Origin: Muribaculaceae bacterium
GTDB lineage: Bacteria; Bacteroidota; Bacteroidia; Bacteroidales; Muribaculaceae
DNA length: 64,000 bases
Reading direction: 5' to 3'
Assembly (NCBI GenBank): GCA_029058745.1
Contig: JAIDXM010000005.1
Span: 62,001-126,000 of the forward strand
Numbering within the stretch: position 1 is the first letter of the stretch; each line of letters begins with the position of its first letter. Position numbers and translations under genes: made by a program. The notes beneath the pieces are model-generated. The model was given only the letters and a program-made list of their open reading frames with translations. It was not told where the DNA came from and searched no databases. Of the stretch, positions 3,086 to 49,616 are shown in pieces.

Positions 3086-5337
3086 CAGAAAGATAGAGTT
3101 ACGGTTGCGAGAACGTTGGTTGTAGCTTGCGCGGCATAGCCTGCATAGCGGTAGATTACGGGGGCGCCGTTCTCAAGATAGTAGCCGGCTCCGGAGTATC
3201 CGTTGTTGCAGTATTTCTCGTTGAAAAGGTTATAGATTGTGAATCCGAGGCGCAGTTCCTTCATGGAGGGTATCCTCTTGAAGGTGTATGCCAGCGAGAG
3301 GTCGGACACGAAATAAGAGTCGAGTCTCGCGTCCTCGCTTTTGGCATTGTTCATGTATTGGCTCGACACGTAGCGGCTCATGAGCGAAGCCTCGAATCCC
3401 GCTACAGTGAAATTGAATGCATTGTGTAGGATGAAGTCGGGCGAGAATGCGATTGGAGTGTCTCCACGGTCGAACGAAATCGGATTGGTCCATTCATCCT
3501 CATAGATATATTCCACGAAGTCCTTGATTCGGTTTCTCGACAGTGTGGCGTTGATTTGCCAGTCAAACCATCTTGTGGGGCGTAGGGCGCCCTGCAGCTC
3601 TATTCCCATTCTGTAGGAGTCAGGCACGTTCACGCTTATGGCGTTTCCGGTGTCTGACAGCTGTCCGGTCACGACAAGCTGGTCCTTATAGTCCATATAA
3701 TAAAGGTTGGCGCCGACAGAGAAGAGTGGGTTGGTGTATGAGTAACCGAGTTCATAGTCAAACATCCGTTCCGCCTCGGGATAGTGGCCTGGGTCGCTGT
3801 CGGTGAAATTGTCGCGGGTTGGTTCCTTGTGAGCCACGCTCCATGAGGCGTAGGCGCGGTGTCCGCCGTTGTTGTATGCCAGACCCACTTTCGGATTGAA
3901 GAAATTCCAGTCGCGGTGTATTCCGAGATTGGCCATGTCTCCGGTGTTCCAGTCGAAATTGTCGCTTTCTCCGGAGATGGTGTAGTGGATATGGCGGAAT
4001 TGCAGGTCGGCATATGCTGAGATGCCGTTCCAGATGTCGTAGTCTCCCCGGATGAAGACGTTGGAATCGAACTTGCGTCCGGTGTTATGGTAATATTGCT
4101 GTAAGGGATTTATGGGGCCCACATAGTTTCTGACCCATTTCACCTGCCCGAAGTGGTTGCCTCGGTGCCAGTTTGCGGCTCCTCCGGCCACAAGGGCCAT
4201 TGGCCCGCGTTCATATCTGACGTTTAGCATCCCGCCGCCGAAATCGTTGTCGTTGTTTTTGAGCCGGATGAGGTCTGATTTTGTGACGAGGTTCCCGTCC
4301 TGGTCAGTGAAGGGGGACAACCCGTATTCTTCGAGAGTCCGTTTTGTCTTATACTGGTCGTAATAACCGTCTCCTTTGGTGTAATGGAGTGCGGCGTTGA
4401 GCGTCAGGAATTGTCCGATGTTCTGGTTGAGGAGCAGCTGGAAATGATGTTGCGTGAAATTGTCGCACTGGTCGGCGTAGAATGCTGTATGTCCGTTTGA
4501 GTCGGTATATTTCCCGCAGGGGTTGTAGCGTCGTCCATACTCCTCCATCTCCTCTTTTGAGGCGTAGTCCCAGGCCATATATGTGCGCTCTTTGCCACCG
4601 AAGGCAAGTAGCCTGATTGAGGTATTGTCGCCACGGTAGGCGAGCTGTCCCATGTAGCTCCAAAGTTTTGAGAAAGCACGGTCGATATATCCGTCTGAGC
4701 CAATGTGGCTGAAGCGGGCATCCACTGTCCAATGGTCGCCGAAAAGGCCTGACGACACCTTGATTGTCTGTTTGTTTGAATTGAAAGAACCGTAGGATGC
4801 CGACACCATTGCCGAACGTTCTGACGAGGGGGAGTCGGTGAGCATGTTGATGGAAGCCCCGAAGGCCCCGGCTCCGTTGGCCGACGTGCCGGCGCCGCGC
4901 TGAATCTGTATGTCGCGCAGAGATGAGGCGAGGTCGGGCATGTTGACCCAATATACGTTGTGGCTTTCGCTGTCGTTGATAGGCACACCGTTGGCGGTGA
5001 TATTTATGCGGGAGGCGTCGCTTCCTCTCACCCTCAGACCGCTGTAGCCGATTCCACCGCCGGCGTCGCCGGTGGTGACGATTGAGGGGGTCATCTCAAG
5101 GATGCTTGGGATGTCGCGTCCGTCATTCTTTCTCGCAATCTCTTTGCGACCCACGTTGGTGAAGGCCACCGGAGTCTTCACACCGGCCCTGTTTGCGGTG
5201 ATTTCCACTCCTTTGAGTTCTATGGATACGGAGTCTGCCTCCTGCGCAGACGCGGGAGTAGTCACGGCAGTCTCAGCCATGACGGGGAGTGCGCCGACAC
5301 ATGTCATGAGCGCGCCCCATGAAATTCTTTTGTTCAT
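3085..5337 (-). CDS. TonB-dependent outer membrane receptor, probable thiamine uptake
   Basis: 750 aa with signal peptide, plug domain (NDGRDIPSILEMTPSIVTTGDAGGGIGYSGLRVRGSDASRINITANGVPINDSES) and C-terminal beta strand ending in F; TPP riboswitch directly upstream. Confidence 0.88.
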   Translation of the reverse strand: MNKRISWGALMTCVGALPVMAETAVTTPASAQEADSVSIELKGVEITANRAGVKTPVAFTNVGRKEIARKNDGRDIPSILEMTPSIVTTGDAGGGIGYSGLRVRGSDASRINITANGVPINDSESHNVYWVNMPDLASSLRDIQIQRGAGTSANGAGAFGASINMLTDSPSSERSAMVSASYGSFNSNKQTIKVSSGLFGDHWTVDARFSHIGSDGYIDRAFSKLWSYMGQLAYRGDNTSIRLLAFGGKERTYMAWDYASKEEMEEYGRRYNPCGKYTDSNGHTAFYADQCDNFTQHHFQLLLNQNIGQFLTLNAALHYTKGDGYYDQYKTKRTLEEYGLSPFTDQDGNLVTKSDLIRLKNNDNDFGGGMLNVRYERGPMALVAGGAANWHRGNHFGQVKWVRNYVGPINPLQQYYHNTGRKFDSNVFIRGDYDIWNGISAYADLQFRHIHYTISGESDNFDWNTGDMANLGIHRDWNFFNPKVGLAYNNGGHRAYASWSVAHKEPTRDNFTDSDPGHYPEAERMFDYELGYSYTNPLFSVGANLYYMDYKDQLVVTGQLSDTGNAISVNVPDSYRMGIELQGALRPTRWFDWQINATLSRNRIKDFVEYIYEDEWTNPISFDRGDTPIAFSPDFILHNAFNFTVAGFEASLMSRYVSSQYMNNAKSEDARLDSYFVSDLSLAYTFKRIPSMKELRLGFTIYNLFNEKYCNNGYSGAGYYLENGAPVIYRYAGYAAQATTNVLATVTLSF

Positions 5338-5348
5338 CTCTTTTTTTT

Positions 5349-5444
5349 CTTTACGCCGGTACTAACCGGATCAAGTTCAAAGGGTCTGTTCTCAGCTTCA
5401 TCTTCCTGCGGCGTTGCGGCCTACGAGACGATGACGCACCCCTA
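5349..5444 (-). promoter_or_regulatory. TPP (thiamine pyrophosphate) riboswitch, THI element
   Basis: Reverse complement reads GGGGTGCG...GCTGAGAACAGACCCTTTGAACTTGATCCGGTTAGTACCGGCGTAAAG, matching the conserved CTGAGA...ACCC..GAACCTGATC.GG.TAATACC.GCG core. Confidence 0.93.
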
Positions 5445-5507
5445 AAAAATGCGGAAGGAGTTCTGAATCTATGGTTTATGCCAGGGCATCCTCTCGCATT
5501 CCGTATG

Positions 5508-24409: not shown

Positions 24410-24766
24410 TCACACAATCCCTTCCAACAGTTTTTTCACGACCATGGCATTGTTGTGGAGAGGGTCTTTTGAAGAATACAGTAGCGTCACATGACCCTTG
24501 TCGGCTAAGGTGTCGCGCAGAGTCGCGAATGCGGGATTACTTTTCAACTCTTCCGCATATTTCTGTTCAAACTCCTCCCATCTGCTGGCAGGGTCGGAAT
24601 GAAACCATTCCCTCAGACTTGTGGATGGGGCGATCTGTTTGTCCCACCAGTCGTAGTGGAATGTTGAGTGCGACAGTCCTCGTGGCCATAGGCGGTCGAT
24701 ATATACCCTGAATCCGTCGGTGTTTTCACGGGGTTCGTAAGCCCGTTTGATTTGCAGGTTGTCCAT
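24410..24766 (-). CDS. DUF488 family protein
   Basis: IKRAYEPRENTDGFRVYIDRLWPRGLS...WDKQIAPSTSLREWFHSDPASRWEEFEQKYAEEL. Confidence 0.95.
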   Translation of the reverse strand: MDNLQIKRAYEPRENTDGFRVYIDRLWPRGLSHSTFHYDWWDKQIAPSTSLREWFHSDPASRWEEFEQKYAEELKSNPAFATLRDTLADKGHVTLLYSSKDPLHNNAMVVKKLLEGIV

Positions 24767-44892: not shown

Positions 44893-46208
44893 ATTTTTCC
44901 TGATGTGAAGAGTAGTTTGTAATAATAATAGATGGTGTTTATTCTTGCGTTGACGAGTTGCTGTTCTGCGTCAAGTTTGGAATTGGCGGCGTCCAGCATA
45001 TCCGTGATGAGAGCCATGTCGGCGGCATATCTTGTCGAGGTGGTGCGATAGTTTCTGTCGGCAAGCTCCACCCCCTTCTGGCGTGTTTTCAGTTCCTCGA
45101 AAGCCTCAAGATAACGGATGTAGTCTTCCCGGACGCCGAGACTCACGTTTTCCAGTTCGGCGTCGAGACGGTCGATGGCATGGCGTGTCGAGACACGGCT
45201 TTTGGCCATCGACTTGTCTGTCTTGTATAGGGAGGAGATATTGTAGCTTAACCCTACGCCGACATACCAGTAACTGAGGTTGCGGTTGATTGGAGGCACC
45301 TCCACGAGTATGGGGCCGTCCATGGTCCATGCCGCCTCGATTCCAATCTTCGGCAGTCTCTCGCTCTTCACGAGTTCTTCGGCTTTGCGGCAGATATCTA
45401 TGCCGTTTTGGGCCAGTTTCAGGGTCGGTGAGTTTTCCTTTGCTTCCTGTTGCCACCACATCTCAGTCTCTTCGGGGAGGCTCTTCAACAGGATTGCCGA
45501 GTCCGGCACAATCTCCATGTCTTCCGGCAGTCCGGCGGTGATGGAGAGGTTGCGGTTCATGATTCTGAGGGTGTTGTCGATTCTGACAAGCTGGAGGCTT
45601 AGGTTTGAGAGCAGCAGCTCATAGCGGGTGATGTCATTTTGCAGGGCTGTGCCTTGTTCAAAACGTGCGTGCATCTCGTCGAGCACCTTTTGGGCTTGTC
45701 CGATATTACCCACCACCACGTCTCGGAGGTTGTTGTATTTGTAGATGTCGAGATAGAATCCCGTGAGCCTGAATCTGATGTTGTCACGCTGGAAGTCGGT
45801 GGCATATCTCGCGGCGGTGGTTTTGAGTTCCGCGAGTTCTATGCTCCGCGTGATTGCCCCTCCGGTATATATCGGTTGGGAGACGTTGACGGAGATGCCG
45901 TTGCCGAAATGTGGGATGGGGGCTTTCTCATAGCCGGAGAAGTCGCGTCGGGTGATGAATCCGTCGCCGATATAGCTTAGTGACAGACTTGCCTTGATGT
46001 CCGGAAGTCTTGATGTCTTTGCCACTTCCGTCTCATGGCGGGCTTCCTCCTCTGCGGAGAACGACGGGCGGAGCTGCGCGCTGTTCTGTTCGGCAATCTC
46101 AAACAGCTGCTCAAGAGTCAGCATCTGTTTTACCTGCCCGAACGCGCACGACCCGCAGCTCATCAGGGTTGCGGCGAGCAAACCTGTGAGCAATCGGTGA
46201 TTGTTCAT
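44889..46208 (-). CDS. TolC-family outer membrane efflux protein
   Basis: 439 aa with signal peptide, LTLEQLFEIAEQNSAQLRPSFSAEEEARHETEVAKTSRLPDIKASLSLSYIG; overlaps the start of the adaptor gene. Confidence 0.93.
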   Translation of the reverse strand: MNNHRLLTGLLAATLMSCGSCAFGQVKQMLTLEQLFEIAEQNSAQLRPSFSAEEEARHETEVAKTSRLPDIKASLSLSYIGDGFITRRDFSGYEKAPIPHFGNGISVNVSQPIYTGGAITRSIELAELKTTAARYATDFQRDNIRFRLTGFYLDIYKYNNLRDVVVGNIGQAQKVLDEMHARFEQGTALQNDITRYELLLSNLSLQLVRIDNTLRIMNRNLSITAGLPEDMEIVPDSAILLKSLPEETEMWWQQEAKENSPTLKLAQNGIDICRKAEELVKSERLPKIGIEAAWTMDGPILVEVPPINRNLSYWYVGVGLSYNISSLYKTDKSMAKSRVSTRHAIDRLDAELENVSLGVREDYIRYLEAFEELKTRQKGVELADRNYRTTSTRYAADMALITDMLDAANSKLDAEQQLVNARINTIYYYYKLLFTSGKI

Positions 46209-46526
46209 AGGGTAAAAATGTTTGTCGGTATGTATTATGGATTGTATGTCATACGGGAAGGGAGGCCGTATGACGCTGGTGTGTCATGTGTGAAATTCCG
46301 GACACAGCCGTAATTTTACTGGGTGCTTTTCCAGTTTTCCTTGAAAGCGTAGTTCTGTACGTTTGCGAGAGTCTCGCCTGAGGCGCAAATATTATAGTTC
46401 ATATGGGATGGCTCTTTGTGAACCATGCCGCAAAGTTAAGAAATTTTTTCCAAACAGCACGCATCCTGTCGGAAACAGACCTCACACACCGCTGGAAAAC
46501 AAACCGAAAGATACCTGTATAATTTT

Positions 46527-46557
46527 TTTGAAAAATAAAAAATTATATTTAACTTTG
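46527..46557 (+). promoter_or_regulatory. Bacteroidetes-type promoter driving the noncoding region
   Basis: TTTG 46527-46530, 19-nt spacer, TAACTTTG 46550-46557; no ORF of appreciable quality starts before 46960. Confidence 0.7.
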
Positions 46558-46615
46558 CGGACACAGACCGCCTCGCAGAAGCCCCGGTCCGGGGTGAAGC
46601 GGGAGGGATGTGGAG

Positions 46616-46635
46616 GGACGCGACAAGTCGCGTCC
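46616..46635. repeat. REP-like hairpin
   Basis: GGACGCGAC aa GTCGCGTCC, preceded by GG; typical of short palindromic REP units. Confidence 0.6.
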
Positions 46636-46872
46636 ATAGAGACATACAATAAAAGCGTTTATCCGCGCTGATTCTTGACAAATCGAAATTCTCGCAAAAT
46701 TTCAAGTCTAAGTCAAGGGTTTGGCAACGGTAGATGCCCGTGGATATGTGATATAATTGCAATCGGACAATATTTCGGGAGAAATATTGCCGGGTGCATT
46801 GATTGCATATACAAGCGTGGGCTTCTGCGTTGCCGTCCGACTTAGACTGGGCAATGCGAGAAGCCTCGATTT

Positions 46873-46910
46873 GTAGGACGGTAACAGATACAGACTCCTA
46901 CGCTTTTTTT
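46873..46910 (+). terminator. Rho-independent terminator of the candidate ncRNA
   Basis: GTAGGA (46873-46878) / TCCTAC (46896-46901) followed by GCTTTTTTT. Confidence 0.6.
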
Positions 46911-46959
46911 ATACTAACCTAACGCCAACGAGGGGAGTGCTGCGGCAATAGTTGTAATT

Positions 46960-47211
46960 ATGAGAGAATCTTTACGGAAGGTAATGTATCTGCTTGAGTG
47001 TGATGGATTCAATCCGGATGCCTCCCCGAAAGAGCTGGCAGAATATGAATGTTGTTCTCAAGAGCGGGAGGGATACTTTCATCGATGGATGGACGATAAT
47101 GAAACCGGCAAGGATATCCCCTATGTAAAAACAGTGGCTCTTGTTGAGGACGCAGAAAGTGGGAAGATGAATATTGTGGAATACTATAATCTAAGATTTG
47201 TGAAGGATTAA
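46960..47211 (+). CDS. Small hypothetical protein
   Basis: 83 aa ORF, 2 bp upstream of the HEPN-like gene on the same strand. Confidence 0.5.
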   Translation: MRESLRKVMYLLECDGFNPDASPKELAEYECCSQEREGYFHRWMDDNETGKDIPYVKTVALVEDAESGKMNIVEYYNLRFVKD

Positions 47212-47213
47212 CC

Positions 47214-47621
47214 ATGGACTCAGACAGTTTGATGTCATCTAACGATATTCCTGATGAAGGTCTTCGGTTCTTTCATAGCCTATCTAATTGGGTGGAACAA
47301 ATCAAGGGTTCGCATCCTGCCATCATCAAGTGGAAGAACGGACAGAGGCAACTCACTAAACTGCAGTGTATCAAACCTTGTCAGAAAGAATCAATTACTT
47401 TACCACATGTTTTGCCGGATAATACATTGTTTATTCCGATTAGCAGTGGAGGTTTGAGTGTAATACGTCAGTTAAGACATGCCTTTTGTCACAATGGTCT
47501 TACATATGACAGAGCCTCAATGCAGTATGAAATTAATCAAACAAATCAAATAAAAATTGTTGGACGTTTTTCTCTTGATGCAATCAAGGAATTCGTGTCG
47601 GTATATTGCCAATTAATCTAA
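47214..47621 (+). CDS. HEPN-like domain protein
   Basis: 135 aa; VIRQLRHAFCHNGLTY contains an R-x4-H motif typical of HEPN families. Confidence 0.5.
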   Translation: MDSDSLMSSNDIPDEGLRFFHSLSNWVEQIKGSHPAIIKWKNGQRQLTKLQCIKPCQKESITLPHVLPDNTLFIPISSGGLSVIRQLRHAFCHNGLTYDRASMQYEINQTNQIKIVGRFSLDAIKEFVSVYCQLI

Positions 47622-47633
47622 AATATCAAAGAA

Positions 47634-49616
47634 ATGAGAATTGAAACGAACATCACGAAAGTGATGATGCTGATAACTATGTTGTTGGCATCACATTCAG
47701 CATCGGCTCACGATTTCGAAGTCGATAGTGTGTATTACAGTGTCATATCATTGGATGATATGACTTGTCAGGTCGATGGAGGACATGCAGGTTTGACTCA
47801 CCTGAATATCCCGGGAATTGTTACTTTCAAGGGTAGAGAATTTGCTGTTAAAAGTATAAGTCAGAACGCCTTTGAAGGAAGTGATATTGAGAGTGTTGCG
47901 ATAAATGGGGGCGTGGAAAGAATTTATTCCAAAGCGTTTTACTTATGTGAGAAACTTGTAAAGGTCGATCTTGGAACAGTAAAAATTGTAGATGAAGATG
48001 CGTTTAACGGATGCAGGATGCTGTCAGATCTTGACTTGGGTATGGCAGAGGAAATACAGGCTCGGGCATTCCATGATTGTTCTATATTAAATCTTGAAAT
48101 ACCTGGAACTGTCAAGTTATTGGGTGAGGATAGCTTTAATATTGAAGAATGTGATTCAATTGTTTTTCAAGCAGGAGAAACAACATTGGAAATATCTTAT
48201 AAATTTAAGAATGGGGCAAAGATTTATTTGGATCGCAATATTTGCCATAAAGGTGGCTATATATATAATAGGTATATTAATATAGAATTTGGTGAAAATG
48301 TATCGGTATTCCCATCATACCTTGGAAGGAAGCTTGAAAAGTGTGATTTATCAAATACAAATATTCGTATTATTGAGAGTCGTGCATTTGGTGAAGATTT
48401 GTCCGAGATAATTCTGCCGGAAACGCTTGACTCAATTTATTACAGTGCATTTGAAAATGCACGTATTAAAGAAATTAAACTGCCTGATGGATTGTCTGAT
48501 ATTGGCTCCAGTGCCTTTGAAGGTTGTAAAAATTTAACAGAACTTGAGATACCGGGATCTGTAAAAGAAATAAAAGATCTTTTTGGAGGGTATAAAGGAA
48601 ATTTAAAATCCTTGAAATTAAATGAAGGTACTGAGATTGTTGGTGTTAAAGCATTCAAGTATATGCCATTGGAGTCTGTGGATTTTCCAACTACGATTTC
48701 AACTATCATGACAGATGCATTTTATGGTTGTGATAAACTTACGAAGTTGTCTATTCCTGTCAATGTAAAGACAATTGAGGGCGGTGCATTTAATGGATGC
48801 AGTGGCCTTCGCAAACTTGAAATAGAGGAAGGAGATAGCGTACTGCGTATTAATCAAAAAGTTATAGACTCTAAAATATATGGTGGAAAATATGCTCAAT
48901 CAGAAAAACAGGCATATGAATTTGGTTATAAGAGAACTGAAAATTATAAGTATTTAAGTCCCTTCGTTGTTGATAGTTTGACAGAACTTAAGATTAATAG
49001 ACCTGTTGCATATTTTGAAATTCCAGAGGAGGATATGGTTACTCCACCAATAGAAGAGTCACTATTAAATAACTACTCGGCAACTGAAATAACAGAAATA
49101 TATTCATTTATATTCCCTAATACTACTCTAAAGAAGCTAAACATTGGAGATATTAGTTATGGTAGGCATTATTTTAGTCCAGATACCGTGGAATATAAGT
49201 ACGATCTTTATCGTGCAGAAAACGATAGATATTTCTATAAAAATATGTATGACCGAAAGTGTTACTTATCTCCAATGTTTTATCCGGAGAACTTATTAAG
49301 TTTGGAAGAGTTGCAGATTAACATGACTACTCCTCCAGAACTGACAATCGACTTTCCAAATTCAGTATATATGAATGCCGTTCTTTATGTTCCTGTTGGA
49401 TCGAAAGTAAGATATGAACAAGCTCCATATTGGAAGAATTTCTGGGAGATTGTTGAGACTGATGATTTTTCAAGTGTCAGCGAGATTCAATTAGAATCAA
49501 CGGATAGGGTAGTGATAGGTCGTTATGATGTTTCTGGAAGACCTGTGTCAGAAAATTATAGAGGTATAACGATTATCCGCTTCTCTGATGGCTCAACAAA
49601 AAAAGTGGTTTTATAG
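47634..49616 (+). CDS. BspA-like leucine-rich repeat surface protein
   Basis: Repeated ..AFEGCKNLTELEIPGSVKEI.., ..AFYGCDKLTKLSIPVNVKTIEGGAFNGCSGLRKLEI; signal peptide LITMLLASHSASAHDFEVD. Confidence 0.92.
   Translation: MRIETNITKVMMLITMLLASHSASAHDFEVDSVYYSVISLDDMTCQVDGGHAGLTHLNIPGIVTFKGREFAVKSISQNAFEGSDIESVAINGGVERIYSKAFYLCEKLVKVDLGTVKIVDEDAFNGCRMLSDLDLGMAEEIQARAFHDCSILNLEIPGTVKLLGEDSFNIEECDSIVFQAGETTLEISYKFKNGAKIYLDRNICHKGGYIYNRYINIEFGENVSVFPSYLGRKLEKCDLSNTNIRIIESRAFGEDLSEIILPETLDSIYYSAFENARIKEIKLPDGLSDIGSSAFEGCKNLTELEIPGSVKEIKDLFGGYKGNLKSLKLNEGTEIVGVKAFKYMPLESVDFPTTISTIMTDAFYGCDKLTKLSIPVNVKTIEGGAFNGCSGLRKLEIEEGDSVLRINQKVIDSKIYGGKYAQSEKQAYEFGYKRTENYKYLSPFVVDSLTELKINRPVAYFEIPEEDMVTPPIEESLLNNYSATEITEIYSFIFPNTTLKKLNIGDISYGRHYFSPDTVEYKYDLYRAENDRYFYKNMYDRKCYLSPMFYPENLLSLEELQINMTTPPELTIDFPNSVYMNAVLYVPVGSKVRYEQAPYWKNFWEIVETDDFSSVSEIQLESTDRVVIGRYDVSGRPVSENYRGITIIRFSDGSTKKVVL

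Follow-up and report, generated by a model that had tools for sequence, protein, structure and literature searches.

Computational searches have found several structured RNA motifs in the Bacteroidetes, and some of the described systems closest to the element reported here come from such work. Bacteroidales-1 (RF01693), Bacteroides-1 (RF01694) and Bacteroid-trp (RF01692) (PMC2864571) are like it in this respect, but they gave no match to the element in our DNA (E up to 10) or to its divergent copies (E up to 5). Candidate structured RNAs of the human microbiome, some of them from Bacteroidetes, represent the same kind of discovery (PMC8040213), and that set could include a fragment of the element; the Bacteroidetes candidates that its main text describes measure 40-132 bp, shorter than the element, and it is by these main-text descriptions that the two are set apart. 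Literature searches and the main texts of both papers gave no description of the element, and an unnamed partial match may exist among their supplementary models.

The locus lies in a window of 64,000 nt (the whole stretch of Muribaculaceae DNA analysed), and a first-pass annotation had read it as a 6S-like RNA or another Bacteroidales small RNA, naming 6S and Bacteroidales-specific motifs such as Bacteroidales-1 as the Rfam entries to compare. 6S RNA (RF00013) and 6S-Flavo (RF01685) resemble the element in the long rod of its minimum-energy prediction, but the element is multi-copy, located in cis and without a match to either covariance model, and the 6S-like reading was abandoned. Neither RF00013 nor RF01685 matched anywhere in the genome, and searching 46200-47000 with E up to 10 gave no match to them either; the control for RF00013 matched in 5 genomes, and that for RF01685 was silent. 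With Rfam 15 at gathering score, the only match in the whole window was a TPP riboswitch at 5331-5453 on the minus strand (64.2 bits). The region 46200-47000 at E up to 10 and a scan of 14 divergent copies, known antitermination elements included, gave no relevant match, and no known riboswitch or leader class matched at or near its gathering score. By these scans the element belongs to no family listed in Rfam 15.

A multi-copy RNA family of the Bacteroidales

The claimed transcript is framed by a promoter and a terminator-like end:

46527..46557, plus strand: Bacteroidetes-type promoter, with the -33 TTTG at 46527-46530, a 19-nt spacer and the -7 TAACTTTG at 46550-46557
46873..46910, plus strand: intrinsic-terminator-like hairpin (46873-46878 / 46896-46901) and U-tract, overlapping hairpin P3, the outer stem and the pseudoknot described below

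The promoter, the claimed transcript of roughly 345 nt, the terminator-like end (GTAGGA and TCCTAC, followed by GC and seven T), the segments of the rod and its apical CAATATTTC-GGGA-GAAATATTG hairpin all lie where the first-pass annotation had put them, although the terminator, correctly placed, is not the end of the element, which continues to about 46947. The same promoter type is found immediately 5' of nearly all homologous copies, and between promoter and start codon the leader measures about 350-390 nt. For the transcript 46561-46907 the folding energy is -148.1 kcal/mol, while dinucleotide-shuffled sequences give -102.2 +/- 5.6 (z = -8.25). On the minus strand, a further Bacteroidetes-type -7 box (TTAACTTTG, 46425-46440) would place two divergent promoters in one gap; this candidate could drive a divergent TolC / membrane-fusion / MFS-type efflux operon (46208 down to 42258).

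DNA searches found a second copy in the same genome at 81% identity, together with weaker ones, and most related genomes of the genus contained several copies each. A covariance model, R1, was made from 23 oriented and aligned copies after removal of a variable tip, and it matched 10 copies in the window's own genome. In Muribaculaceae, R1 matched 136 of 149 genomes, representing 28 of 30 genera, with 1 to 14 copies each; over the order Bacteroidales the figures were 69 of 394 genomes, from 40 of 207 genera (one genome sampled per species, rough E-values). In a sample of 299 genomes from across the Bacteroidota, R1 matched none but that of the window, which shows the model to be specific and the family, at the sensitivity of R1, to be confined to Bacteroidales. 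A GTDB pattern scan matched Duncaniella muris, Heminiphilus faecis, Barnesiella sp. WM24, Paraprevotella clara and many Muribaculaceae MAGs. The element is one copy of an undescribed, multi-copy structured RNA family of Bacteroidales. Two weak copies (53-55 bits) at G000:C59:18987-19196 and 24421-24630 (L043 and L042) are separated by about 5 kb, point the same way, have near-identical 5' ends and carry no clear TAnnTTTG promoter; they are possibly a diverged or related subclass.

Cis location and downstream genes

Among 126 distinct copies, the nearest downstream gene was co-directional in 122 and opposite in 1, with no gene called in the other 3, and the RNA-to-start-codon distance had a median of 58 nt (quartiles 53-80). 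Upstream genes, for contrast, were co-directional in 70 cases and opposite in 40. In the window the element is followed by three genes:

46960..47211, plus strand: first downstream gene, 83 aa, function unassigned
47214..47621, plus strand: second downstream gene, 135 aa, function unassigned
47634..49616, plus strand: third downstream gene, 660 aa, predicted secreted, resembling BspA-type leucine-rich-repeat proteins

Homologues of the 83-aa gene occur in five other genera at 41-50% identity, and the element lies directly upstream in 6 of 6 genomes in which the gene was found (the window's included), once in a very divergent form scoring 26 bits. Its multiple copies, its short fixed distance and its retention with the gene across genera make the element a cis-acting 5' leader, not a stand-alone sRNA. 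The free sRNA that had been proposed does not fit 10 copies in a single genome, nearly every family member followed by a co-directional gene, and 6S identity was rejected both on the silent covariance models and on the 122 of 123 scored downstream genes that are co-directional. Both properties that define a cis-regulatory structured leader, namely a conserved structure that covaries and a location 5' of co-directional genes with retention beside homologous ones, were found.

What the leaders precede is diverse. Using a crude rule, a signal-peptide-like start was seen in 57 of 112 first downstream genes and in 50 of 197 upstream controls (p = 1e-5). When 99 first-gene products were compared with Pfam, BspA-type leucine-rich repeats (LRR_5) were the commonest class with 10, followed by Big_2 (4), outer-membrane barrels (4 and 3), DUF3575 (2) and Peptidase_C10 (2); the remaining matches were single defence-like or other families, and no shared pathway recurred among these 99 products. 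Many operons start, as in the window, with a small cytosolic protein and have a secreted protein with a BspA-like start in second or third place. From these data we infer that the leader controls accessory, often secreted or surface, proteins. By eye, the start sequences of the genes downstream of two copies (L102 and L141) look like those of a von Willebrand-type domain protein, a PP2C-like phosphatase and a protein kinase, and gene sets of this type resemble those in some stress or conflict systems.

Covarying architecture

The pairings that could be followed through the family are listed here, together with a module present in part of the copies:

46564..46640, plus strand: optional 5' module, a GACCG..CGGTC hairpin whose loop contains GCAGAAGCCC (46575-46584), and an accessory hairpin at 46615-46635
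46652..46663, plus strand: 5' strands of the outer stem, a (AAAGCGT, 46652-46658) and b (TATC, 46660-46663), with partners at 46900-46906 (a) and 46887-46890 (b)
46671..46720, plus strand: hairpin P1, stem 46671-46679 / 46712-46720 (ATTCTTGAC/GTCAAGGGT), with strands d, e and f in its loop
46680..46711, plus strand: P1-loop strands d (46680-46686), e (46690-46696) and f (46705-46711), with partners in the P3 loop
46723..46834, plus strand: central arm P2, h 46723-46739 / h' 46819-46834, with an apical extension (hairpin 46768-46789) variable in sequence
46829..46885, plus strand: hairpin P3, stem 46829-46838 / 46876-46885 (GTTGCCGTCC/GGACGGTAAC), with strands f', e' and d' in its loop
46894..46898, plus strand: 3' bulge ACTCC, one half of a pseudoknot, pairing with 46934-46938
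46924..46946, plus strand: post-terminator hairpin (GCC/GGC), whose loop GGAGT (46934-46938) pairs with 46894-46898

A model of 60 pairs was scored on 77 aligned copies, using shuffles and the sliding of one strand as controls. Standard pairs made up 96.5% of cells, compared with 79.5% after shuffling and about 40% after sliding, and compensatory changes were present at 55 of the 60 modelled pairs, in agreement with the expectation that the paired segments are conserved in relatives. For helices that compete, the score of each strand with its own partner was compared, by permutation, with its scores with the partners of other copies. Note that the column shuffles and permutations ignore the relatedness of the copies, for which the slid control accounts in part.

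Measured in this way, the two strands of the outer stem gave z values of 7.8 (a) and 10.0 (b) in 122 copies, kinship being ignored. The P1 stem was paired in 93.3% of cells (86.5% shuffled, maximum 88.9), with 28 compensatory cells in a column count over 48 copies and a permutation z of 9.7; for the P3 stem, counted over the same number of copies, the values were 93.0% (79.8% shuffled, maximum 83.0), 79 compensatory cells and a z of 9.9. P3 had been proposed as one of several alternative pairings (GTTGCCGTCC/GGACGGTAAC), and its strong covariation indicates that it is probably a real stem. Strands d, e and f pair with 46866-46872, 46855-46861 and 46842-46848, respectively, with permutation z of 35.5, 12.6 and 8.6 and compensatory changes covering up to four pair types per position, so that the predicted d, e and f helices join the loops of P1 and P3. 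These three helices are the part of the energy-predicted rod that survives the comparison, and its remaining stretches do not: c-c' (46671-46679 with 46875-46885) gave a z of -0.2 and g-g' (46712-46720 with 46835-46838) a z of 1.5, both without a compensatory cell, while the competing local stems covary. Because their bases are distinct from those of the P1 and P3 stems, d, e and f may coexist with both hairpins, as a linked pseudoknot around a centre resembling a four-way junction, or may alternate with them.

Helix h of the central arm is near-invariant in sequence, too conserved for covariation to tell (z -0.3), and the apical part of P2 differs between copies. P3 and P2 compete, since the six bases with which P3 starts (46829-46834) also pair with the base of P2. 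GGCAATGCGAGAAGCC had been suggested as a further partner for the 3' strand of the rod and has no covariation support; the local hairpin of 46820-46834 with 46850-46865, on the first-pass list, gave no excess over shuffles.

Beyond the terminator, a hairpin with a G-rich loop follows the U-tract in most copies. In 124 copies, the pseudoknot that its loop would form with the 3' bulge scored 14.38 with its own partner, compared with 13.00 +/- 0.19 for permuted partners (maximum 13.58), and the pairs differ from copy to copy (GGCTCC/GGAGCC, CGTCC/GGACG, TCTCC/GGAGA, GCGACCC/GGGTTGC).

At the other end, GCAGAAGCCC in the 5' module is complementary to 46819-46828, in the 3' strand of the central arm. 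Its own-partner score was 20.55, compared with 19.27 +/- 0.31 permuted (maximum 19.99), and in one copy (L054) the complementarity is maintained through changes on both strands. The helix is strong in 60 of 109 copies and missing or replaced in the others. The proposed alternative pairing CGCAGAAGCCC/GGGCTTCTGCG is thus supported but belongs to this optional module, and the module was rejected as a universal switch strand, being present in only about half of the copies. In L090, L092, L106, L118, L120, L151, L153 and others, a recurring CCACGCC..GTAGGGTGAGG..GAACCAACC insert takes the place of the GCAGAAGCCC loop. Taken as a whole, the earlier picture of a promoter-driven structured Bacteroidales RNA with competing pairings is upheld.

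Terminator-like hairpin, competing folds and rival readings

The terminator stem covaries (z 9.3, kinship ignored), has at least 6 bp in 83 of 122 copies and is absent in about 30%; the T-run has a median of 6. Of the stem's bases, 46876-46878 also belong to P3, 46900-46901 to the outer stem and 46896-46898 to the pseudoknot, and its formation therefore excludes all three; this mutual exclusion between a terminator hairpin and other conserved helices is that of an attenuator. In pseudoknot-free energies, forcing the terminator fold costs 3.1 kcal/mol over the free fold in the window and a median of 4.5 kcal/mol (quartiles 2.2-6.05) over 83 copies. Folding of the growing chain in the same type of model forms the P1 hairpin first, by 46720, and replaces it by the rod at 46860. 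Strand a has an alternative local partner at 46665-46669, whose complementarity is general and whose covariation is weak (z 2.5). Two copies (L013 and L116) carry a strong AATACCATTCT..AGAATGGTATT inverted repeat in place of the U-tract, directly 3' of the element, which suggests that in their lineage the terminator has been replaced by another hairpin.

We consider it rather probable that the element is a cis-acting leader of the orphan riboswitch-like attenuator type, controlling accessory, often secreted proteins and having a pseudoknotted read-through form. The nascent RNA would fold compactly, with the outer stem closed, P1 and P3 standing with paired loops, arm P2 formed and the downstream hairpin docked on the 3' bulge. 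P3 would then sequester the 5' arm of the terminator, and the outer stem and pseudoknot its 3' arm, allowing transcription to continue into the operon. In the alternative form, the 5' end would pair locally (46654-46658 with 46665-46669), the terminator hairpin would form and transcription would stop. The balance might be set by a ligand, a protein or the rate of folding, a signal probably read by the near-invariant P2 region. While the overlap of the terminator with the other helices is observed, we infer that termination is real, that control runs in this direction and that such a signal exists.

The covariation of the terminator stem, the length of the U-tract and the small cost of the forced fold speak for the attenuator. 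Against it, about 30% of copies have no terminator stem of 6 bp and the U-run is short in some, which means that only part of the family may use termination as its output; the targets are without the metabolic theme of most riboswitches; and the energies are pseudoknot-free and the shuffles and permutations blind to relatedness. Moreover, the pseudoknot can form only after the U-tract has been transcribed, which control of translation or RNA stability would fit equally well. This is the main rival, and we give it a modest chance: the pseudoknotted domain and the hairpin docked near the ribosome-loading region would set translation or mRNA stability, with the U-tract mainly a linker. The covarying hairpin and pseudoknot beyond the U-tract, some 15-35 nt 5' of the start codon, the near-constant distance to that codon and the copies without a terminator stem all favour such a post-transcriptional leader, but in about 70% of copies the stem is present at an unchanging position, is followed by a U-tract and shows compensatory changes. 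A leader for processive antitermination, in which the folded RNA would modify RNA polymerase for read-through of long, poorly translated or horizontally acquired operons, like put RNA, EAR/epsC and ops/JUMPstart, would agree with a place directly 3' of the promoter and with diverse surface and accessory operons lacking a metabolic theme; it is improbable given that position is also fixed relative to the start codon and that known antitermination elements give no match.

The two readings that dispense with a leader fare worse. That a stand-alone sRNA, 6S-like or other, lies upstream of genes by chance is very unlikely: its own promoter, a terminator-like end and a rod-like minimum-energy fold are what such an RNA would show, but up to 14 copies per genome, the co-directional gene at a fixed distance across genera, covarying pairing that reaches beyond the terminator and the lack of a 6S match all oppose it. 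A mobile or recombination element acting as DNA, such as a palindromic insertion site or an integron-like attachment site, might be multi-copy, have a variable tip and adjoin accessory genes; we hold this hardly credible, as the architecture is strand-specific with a promoter and U-tract, accepts G-U pairs and is nearly always oriented toward a gene. Blastn against plasmids and phages gave no match to the element, ruling against a mobile-element or phage origin.

Returning to the attenuator leader, we put forward, tentatively, the further possibility that it represents a new Bacteroidales class of RNA sensor-switch, in which the loops of two hairpins are joined by three helices (about 20 bp) within an outer stem, with a post-terminator pseudoknot, used as a reusable module before many unrelated surface and accessory operons. 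One common RNA-based control would then act over a changing gene set. The lack of a metabolic theme suggests that what is sensed would be general, be it a signal molecule, a protein or the transcriptional or translational state. If true, the leader would constitute an unrecognised layer of control over surface presentation in dominant gut bacteria, acting on adhesin-like, secreted and accessory genes. The paired hairpin loops should be of interest to RNA structural biologists, and the predictions are testable in the culturable D. muris, H. faecis and P. clara.

Leaders such as EAR/epsC (RF01735) and JUMPstart (RF01707) similarly precede surface or polysaccharide operons, but they belong to a different phylum, are unrelated in sequence and fold (no match), and differ from the element in its many unrelated targets per genome. 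With riboswitches and transcription attenuators the element has in common its position as a 5' leader, a conserved covarying structure and a terminator competing for nucleotides with conserved helices. It differs from them in being outside any Rfam class, in its targets, which follow no metabolic theme, and in its larger size, its three-helix pairing between two loops and the pseudoknot that lies beyond its terminator.
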